Of a DNA stretch of 34,785 nucleotides, positions 2,013-34,785 are shown piece by piece. Numbering within the stretch: the stretch's first letter is position 1; the number at the start of each line of letters is the position of its first letter. A model generated the notes under the pieces. It was not told the origin of the DNA and did not search any database. It saw only the letters and a list, made by a program, of their open reading frames with translations. Source of the DNA: a virus; IMG/VR virus record IMGVR_UViG_3300046167_000250, positions 1 to 34,785 of that record. One strand, written 5' to 3'. Made by a program: the position numbers and the translations under genes.

Positions 2013-4156
2013 ATGGAATATGATAAAGACATAGTTGAAGCAACAGAAGAACAACAAGAGTCTTATGACGAACAAAAATTACAAGGCGTACTCAAATCCG
2101 AAATGGATGACGCTAAAGACTTCATTGACCAAATTGGTGAACAACGAGCAGATGCAACAGACTACTATCTAGGCAGTCAGCCTGGATCAACATCTTCTCT
2201 TCAATCAGAGTTTATATCAACAGACGTTAGAGACAGCGTACTGTTTATGCTTCCCTCTATCATGCGTACCTTTTTTGGTACTAGCAAGATAGTTGAGTTC
2301 ATACCTAAAGGCCCTGAAGACATACAACTTGCTACACAGCAAACCGATTACATTAACTATGTCATCCAGCAAAAGAATCCTGGCTTCAAAGTTTTATACG
2401 ATGCTTTCAAAGACGCACTGATTAGAAAAACTGGTTTTGTCAAAGCCTACTGGGATGACAGCATTACTGCATCAACACACGAATACACAAATATTTCTCC
2501 AGAAGCCTACCAAGCACTCATACTTGATCCTAACGTAGAGGTAATCAAAGAGTCTGTAGAAATGCAAAGCATGACATTGCAAAACCCTGAGACTGGCGAA
2601 GAGATGACTCAAGAAACACCAGCCAGTTACGACATAAAAATTAGAAGAATTAAACCTAAAGACCAAGTGGTTATAGAAGCAGTACCACCCTGAAGAAGTT
2701 TTAATATCAAGAAATGCTAGAGACTTAGAATCATCACCTTACGTTGCACACCGCATGGTAAAAACTGTAAGCGACTTAGTTGCTATGGGTTACAACAAAG
2801 AAGACATGGAACAATACGCTGGTTCTGGTGACTCTATAGATGCAGAAAGTTATGACGAAGAACAAGCAAGAAATCCTTACGCTGATTTTTCTGGCGTAGA
2901 TAGAACTGACCAAAATAATGTTCTCTATGTAGAGCATTATGTTTTTTATGATTTAGATGGCGATGGTATAGATGAAAGGATTAGGGTATGCACTGTAGGC
3001 AATGGGATGAACATTGTTAACGCAACACCTTGGGACGATCTACCTATTACACTCTTCTGTCCCGATCCTGAACCTCACACCTCCATTGGTTCATGTCCTG
3101 CGGACTACCTAATGCCTATTCAAGCGGCTAAATCTCAGATAATGAGAGACACCCTTGATAGTCTAGGCCACGCCATCTTCCCGAGAATGGGAATTGTTGA
3201 AGGACAAGTAAACATCGACGATGTCCTTAACACCGACATAGGACAACCTATTAGAATGAGAGCGCCAGGAATGGTACAGCCTTTCGCTGTGCCTTTCGTT
3301 GGTAAAGAAGCCTTCCCAGTATTGTCTTATCTTGACGAAGCCAAAGGAGAACCGCACAGGCGTTTCTAAAGCCTCCGCTGGACTAAACGCAGATGCACTT
3401 CAGTCTTCTACCGCCCAAGCAGTATCAGCAACCATGTCTGGAGCGCAAGGCAGAGTAGAACTTATTTGCAGACACTTCGCAGACGGAATGAAAGATTTAT
3501 TTAAACTGGTTAACTCACTTGTTATCAAGCACCAAGAAGGTCAAGATATGATGAGACTTAACAATGAGTTTATACCTATTGATCCTAGATACTGGGATGC
3601 TGACAAAGACTTAGTCATTAATGTTGGTATATCTAAATCATCTGATGAAGAGAAGTTCCAAGTCTTAACAGCCCTATCACAAAAACAAGAACAAATCTTA
3701 CAAACACTAGGCCCTGACAATCCTTTACTCAATCTACAACAGTACGCTAACACATTGACCAAAATGATTGAAATGGCTGGTTTCAAAGATGCTAATACAT
3801 TTATAAACACGCAAGTTCCACCAATGCCACCACAGCAACCGCAAGATCAGAAACCTTCTCCTGAAGAAATGTTAGCTCAAGCAGAAGCAATGAAGGCACA
3901 AAACTTAGCACAAAAAGCTATCATTGATGCAGAGACAGACAGAATGAAAATTATCATGGATGACGACAGAAACCGTGATGAACATGAAGCTGATCTAAAA
4001 GTAAAAATAGCTGAACTTGAAGCTAAGTACGGTACGCAAGTAAATGTAGCAGAGATCAACGCTATCATGGAAAGAGATAGAGAAGCTATTAGACAAGTAG
4101 CAAAGAATCAATCTCAAGGAATGTTTACAAATGGAAACAACCAACCAATCGGATAA
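2013..4156 (+). CDS. Portal protein, P22-like, interrupted by two +1 frameshifts
   Basis: The dodecameric portal forms the DNA entry and exit vertex and docks the terminase. Three overlapping frames add up to a 713-residue protein once single bases are removed near 2690 and 3345, close to the roughly 725 residues of P22 portal. The first break is again at CCC-TGA (VPP then stop, continuing as EEVLISRNA). The second is in AAAGGAGAAC, where AAAGAGAAC restores DEAKENRTGVSKA. A characteristic segment, TGVSKASAGLNADALQ, follows. The C-terminal third is rich in Q, E and K, suggesting a helical barrel. It starts six bases after terL and is followed by an overlapping small gene. Adaptor and nozzle genes of matching type lie downstream. 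Confidence 0.88.
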
Positions 4157-22473: not shown

Positions 22474-22517
22474 TTACTCGTTAATAGGTAAACAATCACA
22501 TCAATACTGCTGATTTT

Positions 22518-22535
22518 GGCAAATGGATGGCAAAT
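22518..22535 (+). repeat. Paired GGCAAAT heptamers, right arm candidate
   Basis: GGCAAAT occurs at 22518-22524 and 22529-22535, again 11 bases apart, matching the left pair. It lies immediately upstream of the integrase ribosome-binding site, so integrase bound here could repress its own gene. Confidence 0.55.
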
Positions 22536-22545
22536 GGAGGAAAGC

Positions 22546-23637
22546 ATGGCGCAATACCAGACTGATACAAAAGTGAAAGGTCTTAGAATTTATCCAACAG
22601 GATATTATGTGTACTATCGGATAGATGGTAGACGAAGAGTTATGAAGTTAGCCAACACAGATATTCTTATTGGTGTTGCAAGAAACAAAGCACAAAAAAT
22701 ACTTGGTGAAGTAGCTCAAGGCATTGATCCATTAGAAGCAAAGAAAGTAGAAGCTGATGCTTATACCTTAAACCAGGCGTTTGAGTTAAAGCTAGAAGAC
22801 TTGTTCAACAATAATAAGAAGTGCGTTGAGATGAAGGATGGCAAGATAGATGGTGAGCCAAGACGTATGTGGGATAGAGATGTTAAGAATACTTTAGGTA
22901 AGATGAAACTAGAAAGCGTTGAGACTGGTGATATAACTAAGCTACATATTGCTGTAAGTAAAAGAGCTAAGTATCAAGCCAATAGGGTGGTGCAATTGAT
23001 TAGTTCTGTGTTTGAGAACAGCATTAGATTGTCTTTAGTTAAGTATAACCCTGCAAAGTACGTTAAAAAGAACCCTGAGATGCAACGTGATAGGCCTTTA
23101 ACAGACAAAGAGTTTGCTGAAATAAATAAGCAGATCAATATCATAGAGTCACAAACGCATGAGCGACACTTAAATTCTATCAAGTATATAAGGTTATGTA
23201 TCTTGACTGGTGGTAGATGTGTTAGCGAGATTGGTAGTGCTAAGTGGTCTGATCTTGATGGTAATAAATTAGTCTTAGAAGAACATAAGACAGACTACCA
23301 AGGTAAGCCAAGAGTAATACATCTAAACAATCAAGCTATGGCAATCATTAACTCTTGCGATAGAAACAGCGAAACAATACTTGGTGTTAAATATCCGTTC
23401 CATACTTGGAACAAAATTAGAAAAGCTGCTGGATGTCCAGATGTGACGTTCCACGATCTAAGACATAACTTTGGTACTATGGCAGGTGAGCAAATGAAGA
23501 TTGAAGATGTGAAGACTCTTATGGGACATAAAAGCATTAAGGCTACTGAGCGTTACCGTAAAACTAGAGAGCATATAGCCACCGAAGAAATGCAGAATGT
23601 CGGTAACTATATGCAGAAGATAATGATGTCTAATTAA
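22546..23637 (+). CDS. int: Tyrosine recombinase (integrase)
   Basis: This 363-residue site-specific recombinase would integrate the phage into the host tRNA gene. The start at 22546 is chosen because GGAGG (22536-22540) lies five bases upstream; a TTG at 22516 would extend it by ten residues. It has an N-terminal arm-binding region (YYVYYRIDGRRRVMKLANTD), a core-binding region, and a catalytic domain with TGGRCVSEIG (first Arg), HDLRHNFGTMA (His-x-x-Arg), LMGHKSIKATERY (His and the Tyr nucleophile). All catalytic residues are visible. It fits temperate marine podovirus integrases. Neighbouring attP and an excisionase-like gene complete the module. Confidence 0.95.
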   Translation: MAQYQTDTKVKGLRIYPTGYYVYYRIDGRRRVMKLANTDILIGVARNKAQKILGEVAQGIDPLEAKKVEADAYTLNQAFELKLEDLFNNNKKCVEMKDGKIDGEPRRMWDRDVKNTLGKMKLESVETGDITKLHIAVSKRAKYQANRVVQLISSVFENSIRLSLVKYNPAKYVKKNPEMQRDRPLTDKEFAEINKQINIIESQTHERHLNSIKYIRLCILTGGRCVSEIGSAKWSDLDGNKLVLEEHKTDYQGKPRVIHLNNQAMAIINSCDRNSETILGVKYPFHTWNKIRKAAGCPDVTFHDLRHNFGTMAGEQMKIEDVKTLMGHKSIKATERYRKTREHIATEEMQNVGNYMQKIMMSN

Positions 23638-30274: not shown

Positions 30275-30709
30275 TTGAAAGAACAAAAATGGTGGTTGGT
30301 CATAGAAGCAATTGAGAAGCCAGAGAGGAGTGGGTTAATAAAGTTTGGGGTAGCAATGAAGTATAAGAGCTATGCCAAGCTGAAACAGGTTGTCTGGAAG
30401 TGGTACAAGAAGCAGTTGGGGAGAACTGATATTAAGAGTCGGGAGAAGTTGGTATTGTATGCACTTTGCGAAAGGTATTCAGCACAAGACTATTCTAGCC
30501 ATGATGCGGTTAGCTACTTGGCGTTAATGATTGGTATGCATAGGCATACAGTTAGTAAAGGTATTCAGAATTTGATGGATTTAAATATTATATGGTGTGC
30601 TATTGATGGAGAGAAGAAAGTATTGCGAAGCCTAAAAGCAGGAGTGCAACATAAGCATTTTTTGTTTGTTGGTTTGGGTGTGATGTTAGAGGAAAGCCAA
30701 GAAGGGTGA
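30275..30709 (+). CDS. Second winged-helix protein, HTH_36-like
   Basis: This 144-residue protein uses a TTG start directly after the previous stop. SREKLVLYALCERYSAQDYS, then VSYLALMIGMHRHTVSKGIQNLMDLNII is a clear helix-turn-helix of the HTH_36 type used by replication initiators and plasmid Rep-like proteins, followed by a hydrophobic wing (HFLFVGLGVML). Together with the preceding gene it is the best candidate for controlling the iteron region. It ends inside the convergent terminator. Confidence 0.7.
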   Translation: MKEQKWWLVIEAIEKPERSGLIKFGVAMKYKSYAKLKQVVWKWYKKQLGRTDIKSREKLVLYALCERYSAQDYSSHDAVSYLALMIGMHRHTVSKGIQNLMDLNIIWCAIDGEKKVLRSLKAGVQHKHFLFVGLGVMLEESQEG

Positions 30710-30750
30710 CTACTTTAGGGGGAGTTGATAATATCACCCTCCAAGGCTTT
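30693..30750. terminator. Convergent hairpin between rightward and leftward operons
   Basis: AAAGCC (30693-30698) with GGCTTT (30745-30750), and AGGGTGA (30703-30709) with TCACCCT (30734-30740), form a two-part stem around an AT-rich loop. It overlaps the stop of the rightward gene and lies before the stop of the leftward operon, as expected for a bidirectional terminator. The T-tracts are short. Confidence 0.6.
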
Positions 30751-30758
30751 CTGATCGG

Positions 30759-30939
30759 TTAATCTATATAATCGCTTAATTCAAATGATACAGTAAGTTG
30801 TCCGCTTTTGAGTAAAGATTCAAAATAATCTATTGGACAAGTTTTTTAACCATTTTCTAATTTTAACTAATTCATCTTTGTATATTTTAGCCATATGTGG
30901 TGAGAAGTTTTCTACTTCTATTTGATCACGCGTTTTCAA
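30759..30939 (-). CDS. Small hypothetical protein, one +1 frameshift
   Basis: Leftward, from a TTG (30937-30939) seven bases after AGGAG. MKTRDQIEVENFSPHMAKIY is followed by KDELVKIRKWLK, where the frame stops soon after a run of six T (30842-30847, A on the coding strand). One base less continues as TCPIDYFESLLKSGQLTV to TAA at 30759-30761, for 59 residues. The restored reading is convincing, ending SFELSDYID. Function unknown. It is the last gene of the leftward operon. Confidence 0.55.
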
Positions 30940-30950
30940 TTGTTTGCTCC

Positions 30951-31247
30951 TTAGATTGTTTTAATAATTCCTGGTATTTTATTTTGTAATTTATTTCTTT
31001 TTGGGTTGCTCCTATTCTTAGCGTAATGAACTGCTGATCTACATGCACTACTGCAATACTCAGCTCTTTGTGTTCTATCTTTCATTTCTTTCCCGCAATG
31101 GTTACAAAATGTATTAATTTCTTTTATCAATATTTTTTGTTTTATTTGATGTGGACTATTTAAAGATTTAATTATTTGCTTTACTTCTTTTTGGTTCTTA
31201 GCCTTTATTCTTAGTTGTGTATTTAAATTCACAATATAAGTCTTCAC
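30951..31247 (-). CDS. Zinc-binding small protein
   Basis: This 98-residue protein uses a GTG start after AGGAGG. The basic N-terminal helix region (KAKNQKEVKQIIKSLNSPHQ) is followed by CNHCGKEMKDRTQRAEYC and SSACRSAVHYAKNR. The CxxC and CxxxC pairs resemble a treble-clef or zinc-ribbon finger seen in small phage and mobile-element proteins (FCNHCGK and YCSSACR). Nucleic-acid binding is likely. It ends 11 bases before the next gene. Confidence 0.7.
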   Translation of the reverse strand: MKTYIVNLNTQLRIKAKNQKEVKQIIKSLNSPHQIKQKILIKEINTFCNHCGKEMKDRTQRAEYCSSACRSAVHYAKNRSNPKRNKLQNKIPGIIKTI

Positions 31248-31281
31248 TTTTTGTTTACCTCCTTGTAAGTTTGTAGTGTCA

Positions 31282-31440
31282 TTATTTAGAACTTGTTAAT
31301 TTTAAATATAATTCATGGTCTTTAGTTGACATCATCACCTTAACTCTACGCATATTGTCATCTTTATCATTGCTAAATTTAGCGGTGATTCTTGAAAGTT
31401 CTGGGTACTTTCGTTTTAAGTATTTCATGTCTTGTTTCAT
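31282..31440 (-). CDS. 52-residue basic hypothetical protein
   Basis: The ATG at 31438-31440 overlaps the stop of the upstream leftward gene by four bases. MKQDMKYLKRKYPELSRITA is followed by NMRRVKVMMSTKDHELYLKL, an amphipathic and beta-prone peptide. No known family. The coupled start supports translation. Confidence 0.55.
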   Translation of the reverse strand: MKQDMKYLKRKYPELSRITAKFSNDKDDNMRRVKVMMSTKDHELYLKLTSSK

Positions 31441-31532
31441 AATTTAGCCGTAAATAGTAAAATTAATAATTGCAATTGGTCATCTCTTAGACCTCTTAAA
31501 TGCTTTGGTATTGTTCTTCTATCTATTTTCAT
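31437..31532 (-). CDS. 31-residue peptide
   Basis: MKIDRRTIPKHLRGLRDDQL then QLLILLFTAKL, with a leucine-rich C-terminus, starting after TAATAATG. It overlaps the next gene by four bases (ATGA). Its DDQLQLL core resembles the DDQIQII end of the adjacent upstream peptide, so the two may be related. Confidence 0.45.
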   Translation of the reverse strand: MKIDRRTIPKHLRGLRDDQLQLLILLFTAKL

Positions 31533-31539
31533 TATTAGG

Positions 31540-31700
31540 TTATTCCTCGTTAGTGTTAATAATTTGTATTTGGTCATCAGTTAAAGGACAAATTAAATTC
31601 CTTTTTCCAAAGTTTACTTATCTGATCTTTTGCTTGGTCTATAGTTTCTGCTGTTACCTCGTATGACTGTTCAACAGTCACCTAATAATTCTATTTTCAT
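31540..31700 (-). CDS. Small hypothetical protein, two +1 frameshifts
   Basis: Leftward frame from ATG at 31698-31700. As written it stops after MKIELLGDC. One base less near 31681 gives VTVEQSYEVTAETIDQAKDQ, and one less in an A-run near 31604 gives RNLICPLTDDQIQIINTNEE and TAA at 31540-31542, in total 52 residues. The two restored parts are clearly protein-like. No family known. Confidence 0.5.
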
Positions 31701-31702
31701 TA

Positions 31703-31936
31703 TTAGCTACCTCTTTTTATATATCTATAAGAATCTGTATTCCATTCAGCGTCCAACATCTTAACCAATTCATATTTTAAAGAATCTAAATTGTGTACAT
31801 CAGATATCCATAAATCATTAGTTTCATGTAGGGTCTGTAATGTGCTATCAAGTTTATTTATAAACTTAAATAGATCATCATATTCGCTGTTGGTCATTTC
31901 TATAGTTGTTTTGTTTTTTAGTATTTTTGTTTTCAT
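31703..31936 (-). CDS. Small helical hypothetical protein
   Basis: This 77-residue protein, MKTKILKNKTTIEMTNSEYD, followed by DLFKFINKLDSTLQTLHETN, ends RYIKRGS. It is helical and charged, with no recognised motif. The start overlaps the upstream stop by four bases, and GAGGATG gives a modest ribosome-binding site. Confidence 0.6.
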   Translation of the reverse strand: MKTKILKNKTTIEMTNSEYDDLFKFINKLDSTLQTLHETNDLWISDVHNLDSLKYELVKMLDAEWNTDSYRYIKRGS

Positions 31937-32031
31937 TTGTCTTCATCCTCTTTGGTAATTATTAGATATGCTCCATGTAGGCAAAAAGCCATGAATGAAA
32001 GCACGATTAAAATTTCTATACAGTTAATCAT
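31933..32031 (-). CDS. 32-residue membrane peptide
   Basis: A longer frame runs up to 32181, but AAGGAGCAAGACA lies directly before the ATG at 32029-32031, so the short form is preferred: MINCIEILIVLSFMAFCLHG then AYLIITKEDEDK. About 22 hydrophobic residues make one membrane span with a charged C-terminal tail. It overlaps both neighbours (8 and 4 bases). Role unknown. Confidence 0.5.
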   Translation of the reverse strand: MINCIEILIVLSFMAFCLHGAYLIITKEDEDK

Positions 32032-32320
32032 TGTCTTGCTCCTTGTTTGTAAATAATCGCATCCATTTTGAACCTTCTGTTTCTCTCCATGTTCCGCATT
32101 CTGTAGGGTATACAGGATATATAGAGCAATATGTGTCAGTTCTTGGTTTATCCATGTCATCATCAAAGCACTCAACATCAAAAAACTTTCCGTTTATATC
32201 AATCTCTGTCCATGTTTGTTCACCCTCTTGATAGCAATAGACTCTATTAAAATCTTGAAATATTTTAGAAGCCATGGTTTTAGCTGTTTCAAGTTCTTGT
32301 TCTGTTATCCAGTCATTCAT
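32024..32320 (-). CDS. Acidic hypothetical protein
   Basis: This 98-residue protein begins MNDWITEQELETAKTMASKI and continues with a Cys-, Tyr- and Asp-rich middle (VYCYQEGEQTWTEIDINGKF; TYCSIYPVYPTECGTW), ending FTNKEQDND. It is acidic and has no known motif. Coupled by ATGA to the upstream gene and by an eight-base overlap to the downstream one. Confidence 0.6.
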   Translation of the reverse strand: MNDWITEQELETAKTMASKIFQDFNRVYCYQEGEQTWTEIDINGKFFDVECFDDDMDKPRTDTYCSIYPVYPTECGTWRETEGSKWMRLFTNKEQDND

Positions 32321-32571
32321 CCTTGCTCCTCCTCTAAATGTCCGACAAGTTCTCCATACTTATTAAAAATATTATGATTCATTTCACAATGTTCTATTTG
32401 GTCTTCTAAATCCCATTCTCCGAAATAATCATATTTAATAATTGTATTGCCTTCCTCATCTTCATCTTCATATTCAAAAGGCGTGTCCCACATTTTATTT
32501 ATAAAGTTGTCTTTTGCCTTGTCGTTAAGTTCTGCATACTCGTATGCTTTGATTGTTATTAGTCTGCTCAT
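32317..32571 (-). CDS. Acidic protein with N-terminal AYEYAELNDKAK motif
   Basis: This 84-residue protein starts MSRLITIKAYEYAELNDKAK then DNFINKMWD. The Y-x-x-x-EL-x-x-KAK start is frequent in small phage and prophage proteins of unknown function, sometimes annotated as antitoxin-like without proof. A strongly acidic middle (EYEDEDEEGN) follows. GGAGCAAACCAATG supplies the ribosome-binding site, and the start overlaps the upstream stop by four bases. Confidence 0.6.
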   Translation of the reverse strand: MSRLITIKAYEYAELNDKAKDNFINKMWDTPFEYEDEDEEGNTIIKYDYFGEWDLEDQIEHCEMNHNIFNKYGELVGHLEEEQG

Positions 32572-32774
32572 TGGTTTGCTCCTGTGTAATCTGTAGATTC
32601 AACAATATTGCATATTGATGCTGAATAAACATCTTCTATATCAAGCAATCTTTTATATGCTGTATTTGCATTCTCTTTGGTTGAATAATATGAATAATGG
32701 TCTGTAAGTTTCTCACCACCTGCATTCCAATCTTTTTCCTTTTCTGTCCAAGCTAATATAAATCCGTTGTTCAT
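32568..32774 (-). CDS. Small hypothetical protein
   Basis: This 68-residue protein is MNNGFILAWTEKEKDWNAGG followed by TKENANTAYKRLLDIEDVYS. It resembles short domains, seen in phages, that read an exchange-like pattern (strand, helix, strand), but I cannot name a family. ATGA overlaps join it to both neighbours. Confidence 0.6.
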   Translation of the reverse strand: MNNGFILAWTEKEKDWNAGGEKLTDHYSYYSTKENANTAYKRLLDIEDVYSASICNIVESTDYTGANQ

Positions 32775-32938
32775 TGTGTGGCATCCTCAGTATGTATTGA
32801 TTTTAAAACCTCATCTTCAACTATTCCGAAAGCCTTCCAAATATCATTAGTTTCGCTTTTTGGTGCTGTTGATATGCAGTCTTCCACATAACAACCCACG
32901 GCATTACACAATAGATCAAGTGCTTGTTCTTTGTTCAT
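32771..32938 (-). CDS. 55-residue hypothetical protein
   Basis: MNKEQALDLLCNAVGCYVED followed by CISTAPKSETNDIWKAFGIV and an acidic end, EDEVLKSIHTEDATQ. GGAGGTGACGCA precedes the ATG. Two ATGA overlaps tie it into the operon. It is helical with three Cys and has no known domain. Confidence 0.6.
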   Translation of the reverse strand: MNKEQALDLLCNAVGCYVEDCISTAPKSETNDIWKAFGIVEDEVLKSIHTEDATQ

Positions 32939-33099
32939 TGCGTCACCTCCTGTACATTTAGAACTTGTACATCATCCAGAAAAAAATCAGATTCTATTGC
33001 ATTTAAAACACAATTTTCTTTTAAGTGGTCGCCACTTGGACAAACTAAGTCATCCGCTGTGTCAACTTTTACGTTTAATGTTACTTGTACTGTCTTCAT
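32935..33099 (-). CDS. 54-residue hypothetical protein
   Basis: Starts at ATG 33097-33099 after AAGGAGCAAACACA, the operon's typical ribosome-binding pattern. MKTVQVTLNVKVDTADDLVC is followed by PSGDHLKENCVLNAIESDFF, then LDDVQVLNVQEVTQ. A continuous frame upstream would extend it to 33255, but that part looks like a separate zinc protein. Beta strands with two Cys; function unknown. Confidence 0.6.
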   Translation of the reverse strand: MKTVQVTLNVKVDTADDLVCPSGDHLKENCVLNAIESDFFLDDVQVLNVQEVTQ

Positions 33100-33255
33100 T
33101 GTGTTTGCTCCTTGTATATTTCTATCAATCCACCATTCTGAAACAACATACTGTTCTGTATTACAATCATTACAATAACAATCCATTTCATTATCTTTAT
33201 CTTTTATTAACTCTATATTGCTAGAGGTACAGTTATCACATAATAAGTTATTCAT
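33096..33255 (-). CDS. Zinc-ribbon protein, probably one +1 frameshift
   Basis: MNNLLCDNCTSSNIELIKDK then EMDCYCNDCNTEQYVVSE: two pairs of CxxC (LCDNC, CYCNDC) form a small zinc ribbon. As written the frame reads through (WWIDRNIQGANT) into the next gene. One base less near 33135 would instead give GGLIEIYKEQTQ and a TGA at 33096-33098 overlapping the next ATG by four bases, exactly like the neighbours. I therefore treat it as a 52-residue separate gene. A genuine fusion is the alternative. Confidence 0.55.
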
Positions 33256-33263
33256 AATTCCCT

Positions 33264-33362
33264 CTAGTTTTTTAAGAAATGGTTAATAAGATATGAGCCG
33301 TGCCACGCTTTTCTGTTGCGTGGCTTCTCTGTTAGTTTGGTTATTAGTTGTTTAAATGTCAT
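33264..33362 (-). CDS. 32-residue basic peptide
   Basis: MTFKQLITKLTEKPRNRKAW then HGSYLINHFLKN, after AGAGGTAAACC. It overlaps the upstream gene's stop by 11 bases. The codons of PRNRKAW contain the perfect inverted repeat GCCACGC/GCGTGGC (33302-33324). With no T-tract this is more likely coding, though an RNA structure in the operon message is possible. Confidence 0.45.
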   Translation of the reverse strand: MTFKQLITKLTEKPRNRKAWHGSYLINHFLKN

Positions 33363-33549
33363 GGTTTACCTCTTTTAATTGGTTGCATAGTTTCGTATGC
33401 AATGAATCAATCTCTCTATAATTTAGATGTTCGTTGATGTGTTCTTCTATTCCATATTTTTTGTTAAATGGTCTATGTGTTGATGCTGTAGAATTAACAC
33501 CATTTAAAACACTACATAAAACACTTAACTCTTTTTTAGTTAGTGTCAT
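33352..33549 (-). CDS. 65-residue hypothetical protein
   Basis: A longer hydrophobic extension up to 33663 overlaps the upstream gene and is unlikely. The chosen start gives MTLTKKELSVLCSVLNGVNS, then RPFNKKYGIEEHINEHLNYR and EIDSLHTKLCNQLKEVNHDI. It is helical. It begins one base after the upstream stop. No family recognised. Confidence 0.55.
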   Translation of the reverse strand: MTLTKKELSVLCSVLNGVNSTASTHRPFNKKYGIEEHINEHLNYREIDSLHTKLCNQLKEVNHDI

Positions 33550-33550
33550 G

Positions 33551-34000
33551 TTAACCCACCTCACAATCAAGAAACATCTGGCATACATCCCAAGATAAAG
33601 TTTTATAAGAAACAGGAATAGAAGCACCATCAAACCAATCCATATAATGGTAATCAATAACATCTATTTCTAATGTGTCGCCTATAGTATAAATTCTGAA
33701 CTCATCAGAAGGCCCACCCCATGAGAGTTGAAGTCTATAATATGCGGGGTTATCTTTGCCTTCTGCCTCCACATAATCCCAAGATAAAGCGGTTTGGTTT
33801 ACATAATCAAATAAATCTTCATATTCTTGTAAATAGTCGCCTTTGTGTTTATCAATAACCTTCATGGCTATCTGTTCGCCTTCTGTGGCGTTGTCATAGT
33901 CATTAAAGTATTGCTCCGCCTTTTTGTATTCTTGCTCAACTTGGTTGAACTGATCTTTTACTAGTTCCGCACATGTTGGTTGTGTCGCTGTGTTTGTCAT
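33551..34000 (-). CDS. First gene of the leftward operon, acidic hypothetical
   Basis: This 149-residue protein has GGAGGTAACAAA before its ATG. MTNTATQPTCAELVKDQFNQ leads into a long acidic helix (EQEYKKAEQYFNDYDNATEG), then a beta region NPAYYRLQLSWGGPSDEFRI with YTIGDTLEIDVIDYHYMDWF. I have seen this kind of RLQLSWGGPSDEFRIY segment in many phage proteins without a known function. It leads the operon, so it would be made early and strongly. Confidence 0.65.
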   Translation of the reverse strand: MTNTATQPTCAELVKDQFNQVEQEYKKAEQYFNDYDNATEGEQIAMKVIDKHKGDYLQEYEDLFDYVNQTALSWDYVEAEGKDNPAYYRLQLSWGGPSDEFRIYTIGDTLEIDVIDYHYMDWFDGASIPVSYKTLSWDVCQMFLDCEVG

Positions 34001-34151
34001 TTTGTTACCTCCTAAAGTAATTAATTGTTCTCAACTGTATGAATTGTTACACAAATATACTTATATATCAAACACTTATTTTATAAATCTTAGTGTTTAA
34101 GTGAAGAATGCTGTATTATAGGGGTTTAAGGAGCAATAAAAAAAATCAGTT
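34001..34151. promoter_or_regulatory. Divergent control region between the leftward operon and terS
   Basis: These 151 very AT-rich bases contain the inverted repeat AAACACT (34070-34076) and AGTGTTT (34092-34098). Leftward, TTGATA with AACAAT 17 bases on is a candidate promoter. Rightward, TATTAT (34114-34119) is a candidate -10 with a weak -35. AAGGAGCAA (34128-34136) is 15 bases before the terS ATG, rather far for a ribosome-binding site. This is a likely switch between the early leftward and late rightward directions. Confidence 0.45.
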
Positions 34152-34653
34152 ATGGAGCAAAAAACACCCAAAAAAGACAATAAACCTATGAAAAAAGTAG
34201 GTAGAAAAAGAATTAATATTGATTTAGAGCAAGTAGAGAACCTTAGCATCAAGAGGACTAGGAACTACTCAAATTGCCCGTGCTTTGGGCGTTTCATGGT
34301 CAACTATAGACCGCAACAGAAAACGATCTGCGGAATTTGAGGAGACTATAAAAAGGGGAAAGGCTAAAGGACTTGCCCAAGTTACAAATTCCCTGTTCAC
34401 TTCCGCCACTGATGGCAACGTTACCGCCCAGATATTCTACTTAAAGAATCAAGATGCGAAGACATGGAAAGACCGAGTCGAAAATGTCCATGCAACTATC
34501 AACCTTAATGATGTTCTATCTGGTGCAAAGGATAGAATCGGCAAATATATGGCAAATGAAAACAAGATAACAGAAATAAATCCTTTAGGTACAACGTCTA
34601 AAGAGAAGAGCAGTCTGGTAATTAATCAGACTAATAAGAAAAAGAATAAATAA
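34152..34653 (+). CDS. terS: Terminase small subunit, one +1 frameshift
   Basis: This DNA-recognition subunit of the packaging enzyme reads MEQKTPKKDNKPMKKVGRKR and then IDLEQVENL, where the frame breaks at CTTAGCATC (extra A about 34245). One base less gives ASRGLGTTQIARALGVSWST, a textbook helix-turn-helix, continuing IDRNRKRSAEFEETIKRGKA to TAA at 34651-34653, 166 residues in all, the usual size. As written, translation would end in about 60 residues or restart at an internal GTG or ATG lacking the DNA-binding helix. The end of the gene is repeated at position 1. Confidence 0.88.
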
Positions 34654-34785
34654 ATGGCGGTTGTTACTCCTCCTCATGGTGGCAACGTTCAAGGGTTCGC
34701 CAATAGGTAGAATATTTGTAAGATGCTCCTACAAATACGATGCTTATACCCCCCCTTGATTTTTTCGCACGGGGTATATTACGTG
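34453..34785. repeat. Terminal imperfect direct repeat, right copy
   Basis: This is the second copy of the 333-base end sequence. It joins the right end of the window to its left end, so the gene order is continuous from terS into the terL region. After 34596 it is identical to the left copy, and the 13 differences all lie before that. The small 18-codon frame at 202 recurs at 34654-34710. Confidence 0.95.

Follow-up and report, generated by a model that had tools for sequence, protein, structure and literature searches.

A leftward operon of minute genes in a phage genome: three conserved micro-genes with exchangeable cassettes between them

Results

The leftward gene block

The stretch of DNA analyzed here (hereafter referred to as the window) is a 34,785-base phage record from IMG/VR (IMGVR_UViG_3300046167_000250), in which nearly all the genes point rightward. 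Between positions 34000 and 30759, 15 open reading frames (ORFs; g01 to g15) run leftward on the minus strand. They form a single unit of small, co-directional, overlapping genes, the arrangement of a variable accessory small-gene operon. A first-pass annotation of this DNA had counted about 16 packed genes of 31 to 149 codons, and this size range was confirmed, from g12 (31 codons) to g01 (149 codons). Comparison with relatives revealed that three micro-genes of this operon keep a fixed order, and that the genes in the slots between them turn over and are exchanged, with breakpoints at the gene joints.

The best chain of ORFs with an ATG start and a Shine-Dalgarno (SD) site was determined for each strand and compared with those from 300 dinucleotide shuffles. 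The minus-strand chain comprised 797 codons, 11 genes and five ATGA overlaps, versus only 84 codons for the plus strand, and a mean of 64 and a maximum of 222 codons, with no more than one ATGA overlap, for the shuffles. Shuffled sequence does not yield such a chain, and the gene block is therefore real. The translation signal described as uniform in the first-pass annotation needs some qualification. Four-base ATGA overlaps are present at six junctions (g04/g05, g05/g06, g06/g07, g07/g08, g09/g10 and g12/g13), and the spacings at the other operon junctions are -11, -8, +1, +2, +8, +11 and about +34. The GGAGCAA motif is clearly enriched at SD distance from a start codon (5 observed versus 0.09 expected; 2 occurrences on the plus strand of the whole genome), but the "many" genes said to carry it amount to only about a third.

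The operon opens with g01 (33551–34000; family F00), which encodes a protein of 149 amino acids (aa) with a net charge of -20, matching phrog_36747 (2.7e-11); distant relatives of its C-terminal part occur in Vibrio phages, there within arrays of small unknown genes. The variable gene g02 (33352–33549; 65 aa, family C142, two contigs) precedes g03 (33264–33362; hereafter referred to as F02), a basic micro-gene of 32 aa with an invariant C-terminus, KAWHGSYLINHFLKN, and the first of three landmarks. Next lies g04 (32935–33255), a 106-aa ORF in which a zinc-ribbon-like gene (C91) is fused in frame to a second gene (C26; MKTVQ...). The second half retains its own SD site and ATG, and in relatives each half forms a separate gene. 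Four cassettes follow: g05 (32771–32938; 55 aa, C72), g06 (32568–32774; 68 aa, C30), the acidic g07 (32317–32571; 84 aa, net charge -16, found in a single contig, with a weak match to phrog_10310) and the acidic g08 (32024–32320; 98 aa, C73, 74% in contig L014).

The second landmark, g09 (31933–32031; hereafter referred to as F01), encodes a membrane peptide of 32 aa, is preceded by the joint AGGAGCAAGACA and was found in 59 contigs. It is followed by the 77-aa cassette g10 (31703–31936; C31) and by g11 (31540–31700; C37), which is frameshifted in the window record and intact, at 52–56 aa, in relatives. The third landmark, g12 (31437–31532; hereafter referred to as F03), is a basic micro-gene of 31 aa (MKIDRRxIPKHLRxL...) found in 96 contigs. 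The basic gene g13 (31282–31440; 52 aa, C10) opens one of two alternative operon tails; the other tail is closed, in about 28 contigs (L061, L068, L077 and others), by C04, a small basic protein beginning MSGKGSxPRPIPDRKKYESEFDRIFG... The block ends with g14 (30951–31247; C56), a basic protein of 98 aa with a Cys-rich, zinc-finger-like segment (phrog_1271, 3.5e-5) weakly resembling the zinc segments of HNH endonucleases, and g15 (30759–30939; C57), which has a TTG start after GGAGCAAACAA and is frameshifted here, the intact gene of relatives encoding 59–61 aa. The Zn-like proteins (the N-terminal half of g04, and g14) and the membrane peptide (g09) of the first-pass annotation were thus confirmed by sequence. 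Its gene boundaries required revision at g04, g11 and g15, position 30759 being the stop of g15 in the other frame. The small terminase subunit (TerS; 34152–34653) and portal (2013–4156) genes are also split into overlapping frames. Since these genes are broken likewise, the frameshifts in g11 and g15 are probably indel errors of sequencing or assembly.

Setting of the locus

The window encodes the large terminase subunit (TerL), portal, capsid, tyrosine integrase, PD-(D/E)XK proteins, an AAA ATPase and a Toprim/AAA primase-helicase. A direct repeat is present at both ends of the record (1–333 and 34453–34785), with a divergent inner stretch at about 42–144; the record has a circular or terminally redundant form, with its two ends derived from two variants. 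The integrase gene lies at 22516–23637; no tRNA fragment was found near it, and no CI-like repressor was recognized in the window despite its presence. The relatives (Vibrio phages and aquatic contigs) suggest that these phages are marine.

Wherever flanks were present, the operon occupied the same locus, divergent from the TerS and TerL genes and convergent with the genes for a helix-turn-helix (HTH) protein and the primase-helicase. Flank identity across relatives was mostly 83–100% for TerL and 33–100% for the HTH and primase-helicase proteins, the locus being retained even where the latter were only about 35–50% identical. In the window, the HTH_36 protein (30275–30709) is encoded on the strand opposite to the operon. 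A long hairpin (30699–30757; -28 kcal/mol) lies between the operon end and this convergent gene, and is a candidate end for both transcripts.

Conserved plan and turnover of gene content

Searches of IMG/VR identified 21 contigs with g01, 60 with F02 and 96 with F03, corresponding to 100 distinct stretches after merging. There was no convincing match to F02 or F03 in the cultured-phage collection; GTDB genomes yielded neither g01 nor F02, and g01 was not found on plasmids either. Flank gene-call families that were antisense shadows (e.g. C06 and C13) were excluded by hand. The 51 contigs in which F02 and F03 both occur shared a common layout: g01 or another gene, F02, cassettes, F01, cassettes, F03 and one of the two tails. 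F01, which was never used as a query, was present in 49 of these 51 contigs, always between F02 and F03, and the order F02-F01-F03 was kept in all 49 orderable contigs. The first-pass annotation had suggested a comparison with related phages for gene turnover, and cassette content does turn over among relatives at this fixed locus: the F02-F01 slot holds 0–9 cassettes (37 families) and the F01-F03 slot 0–3 cassettes (15 families), with one family common to both. In L076 and L077, the three micro-genes adjoin directly, with zero cassettes. Contigs selected through g01 are unbiased for the triad; seven of them, including the window, carry all three micro-genes, and six carry one or none, with more than 2 kb present downstream. 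The F02-F01-F03 core is thus common, but not universal.

Selection on the micro-genes

The ratio of non-synonymous to synonymous polymorphism (pN/pS) was 0.27 for F02, 0.42 for F01, 0.33 for F03 and 0.27 for g01. F02, F01 and F03 are therefore under purifying selection. Lack of conservation of the reading frames had been named in the first-pass annotation as a possible refutation; conservation holds for the genes tested. The last 15 residues of F02 were identical in 48 distinct DNA versions, in which most codons varied synonymously; the fractional non-synonymous counts for this segment result from path averaging of Leu codons, with zero residue differences. The N-terminal half of F02 was replaced in two groups, with the C-terminus still invariant. 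F02 was searched for with two patterns from the C-terminal segment, either of which was sufficient, so variants altered in one half would have surfaced. F02 was also considered as an RNA element and rejected: its hairpin (GCCACG/CGTGGC) was not conserved in two F02 groups while the protein remained invariant, and there was no Rfam match.

Cassette exchange and the joints

Phages with HTH proteins less than 45% identical carry cassettes also present in the window group, with DNA identities of 100% for g10 and 98–99% for others. One such distant lineage, L087, carries an identical g10 and shares a 98.1% identical block at g06, but its HTH, primase and TerS proteins are only 35%, 48% and 42% identical, respectively, to those of the window. 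The presence of near-identical cassette DNA in phages with replication proteins 35–48% identical indicates that the exchange was recent. The block shared by the window and L087 runs from precisely the F01 start codon to a point inside F03, and the inner joint of g04 is where another exchange block starts. When all pairs were considered, 335 of 478 unique breakpoints (70%) lay within 15 nucleotides (nt) of a start codon, versus 17% expected at random; these breakpoints are statistically non-independent, but the effect is nonetheless large. Breakpoints thus fall at gene borders, as in boundary-sequence mosaicism.

The joint before F01 is common to most of 16 unrelated upstream families, as expected of a boundary sequence, and the type of joint follows the downstream gene. 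Most of the unrelated genes before F01 end close to AGGAGCAAACACA, genes before F03 often end in GAGGTAACTAACC, and genes before F02 often in GAGGTGGCATAAC. Because the genes overlap, the joint also sets the C-terminus of the upstream protein: among 87 families, 47 pairs had their last three residues in common, versus 1.3 expected, and the tails EVA, EQTQ, EVQG and QPND recurred in unrelated proteins. The uniform translation signal is the cassette seam itself, which contains the C-terminus and stop of the upstream gene together with the ribosome-binding site and start of the following gene. This origin of the signal, the fixed micro-genes and the exchange at joints had all been missed in the first-pass annotation. 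Models in which boundary sequences guide recombination and in which selection leaves them behind have both been published (PMC3233612, PMC3029335); the seam may guide recombination, or it may be what remains after selection.

Transcription signals

A candidate sigma70-like promoter for the operon (TTGATA-17-AACAAT) lies at 34043–34071 on the minus strand, and is not significant in the window alone. Promoter-like sites occur at the matching position in relatives (TTGATA-16-TATGAT in L002 and L004, TTGACA in L028 and TTGACT-16-CATAAT in L013), that of the window being weaker. These motifs would fit early transcription by the host RNA polymerase. In roughly one third of the examined relatives, the operon is instead preceded by an intrinsic terminator, which in g01-led contigs is located 60–65 nt before the first operon gene. 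In L003, L005, L008, L014, L022 and others, a leader ORF is followed, upstream of the operon, by a strongly conserved terminator, AAGCCCGC-TTATGT-GGGCTTTTT, also found in the compensated form AACCCCGC/GGGGTT; the T-runs of these terminators are located within the stem. Transcription in the terminator-bearing relatives may have to read through, and the combination of leader ORF and terminator possibly reflects attenuation or antitermination.

Discussion

Function of the operon

We consider the operon to be, with fair probability, an accessory cassette operon with early, host- or defence-directed action, and this is the best overall explanation. It would be a separate leftward accessory operon at a fixed locus, a cassette array that the host RNA polymerase transcribes. 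F02, F01 and F03 keep their order and probably have a joint function needed across the phage group. The slots between them would be filled by small, mostly acidic cassettes exchanged via recombination at the joints. Each joint (e.g. AGGAGCAAACACAATGA) would hold the end of the upstream gene and the next ribosome-binding site and start, and genes swapped in would thereby keep their translation and coupling. Early action of the cassettes, directed against proteins or defences of the host, is most likely; this proposal draws on the turnover, the small size of the genes, the promoter type and the analogy with genes 143–171 of mycobacteriophage Wildcat. Of the roles foreseen in the first-pass annotation (host takeover, anti-defence or lysogeny), the operon is consistent with the first two; lysogeny control is not supported, as none of the 90 operon families matched an HTH domain or a repressor.

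Several points weigh against this explanation. Some contigs with g01 do not have the whole triad (L005–L007 and L010–L012 lack at least one member). The choice of most contigs depended on the presence of F02 or F03, and the seed patterns for F02 favour its conserved residues; the dependence between breakpoints also counts here. The low median isoelectric point of the cassettes (4.7, versus 5.4 for other genes) and their different net charge per residue (p=0.004) speak in favour of the explanation, but acidity is common among small phage proteins. Few of the 90 families are annotated (GP88, deoxyribonucleotidase and HNH-like zinc proteins), in agreement with the initial impression that almost none has a known function, and there is no known anti-defence gene among them in Pfam, PHROGs or NCBIfam. 

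CxxC pairs were more frequent in the cassettes, being present in 8 of 79 cassette families and in none of 26 other genes. Structure prediction, one of the checks proposed in the first-pass annotation, was of little help: the model for g01 was of low confidence (predicted local distance difference test score of 63), with no PDB match to the fold, and F03 was confidently predicted as a turn and one helix only, which is uninformative. Sequence searches of the PDB also gave no match.

A more speculative extension, to which we give a low probability, is that such an array can evolve without a dedicated recombinase, with each joint serving as stop, ribosome-binding site, start and recombination site. 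The micro-peptides would then provide homology anchors and, in addition, a common complex, host-targeting or regulatory, that the exchangeable cassettes need.

The operon might instead be cargo expressed from the prophage that protects the lysogen, by superinfection exclusion or defence, and is exchanged like other defence hot spots. Rapid slot-specific turnover, the conserved membrane peptide and host-type promoters usable in a lysogen would all suit such cargo. We nevertheless consider it improbable: PADLOC, which covers defence systems rather than anti-defence, gave only two marginal matches (E 0.0026 and 0.004), the operon genes have a median size of 53 codons, and GTDB genomes yielded no prophage bearing g01 or F02. 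Less likely still is a lysogeny or immunity module, in which a temperate phage would encode its repressor, antirepressor and other factors of the lysogeny decision. Its turnover is far beyond what a decision circuit would tolerate, with the possible exception of the three micro-genes; the HTH_36 protein is encoded on the other strand, and the lack of HTH and repressor matches applies here too, against which stand the tyrosine integrase in the genome, a "repressor protein C" annotated in the corresponding leftward array of phage DSL-LC05, and the existence of small phage antirepressors (PMC11323111). Neutral gene litter, in which short ORFs come and go and breakpoints lie at joints because broken genes vanish, is very unlikely: 2 of about 15 genes are frameshifted in the window, many families were seen once and selection for intact genes alone can place breakpoints at gene ends (PMC3233612), but the low pN/pS values, the invariant F02 C-terminus and the fixed order and locus argue against it, and the frameshifts, paralleled in TerS and portal, are likely to be sequencing errors.

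If the operon is an accessory cassette array, its interest is twofold. Small unknown phage genes are very numerous, and two views exist of how they are shuffled, boundary-guided recombination and random joining followed by selection. In this operon, about 50 natural recombinants can be aligned, and their sharp joints, slot rules and landmarks make the choice between the two views directly testable. The array also provides ranked candidates for tests against host functions and defences: the three micro-proteins, of which F02 and F03 have no convincing cultured-phage match, and about 80 cassette families.

Comparison with known systems

The closest precedent is the Wildcat 143–171 region, where small unknown genes form a leftward block at the end of the genome; these genes are expressed early and many are toxic when overexpressed (PMC7474061). 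The comparison is one of architecture, and there is a difference: many Wildcat genes are separated by spacers of 80–100 bp with motifs, whereas the genes of the window overlap and share joints. DSL-LC05 (OR003940) and ctNMl277 (MW202483), with TerL proteins 48–50% identical, also have a leftward small-gene operon divergent from the terminase genes, on the primase side. However, they have no detectable homologue of any window operon gene, and their operons carry repressor, methyltransferase and endonuclease genes ("repressor protein C" in DSL-LC05 and a cytosine methyltransferase in ctNMl277). Anti-defence genes of archaeal viruses have been found via common regulatory sequences (PMC11065993), and they, too, are unrelated small genes behind one conserved signal, but that signal is a promoter or regulatory motif of early genes, whereas the signal in the window is the translation joint between genes of a single operon.

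The joints resemble the short conserved sequences of boundary-sequence mosaicism (PMC3233612, PMC3029335). They differ from the boundary model, and from the lambdoid nin region, in that each joint consists of a ribosome-binding site, a start and a stop and varies with the downstream gene, and in that three micro-genes mark the slots. In the nin region, too, small overlapping genes are replaced at gene borders. The window operon is therefore of a known kind, a variable small-gene operon with boundary-type joints, and its unusual part is the three fixed micro-genes together with the slot rules.

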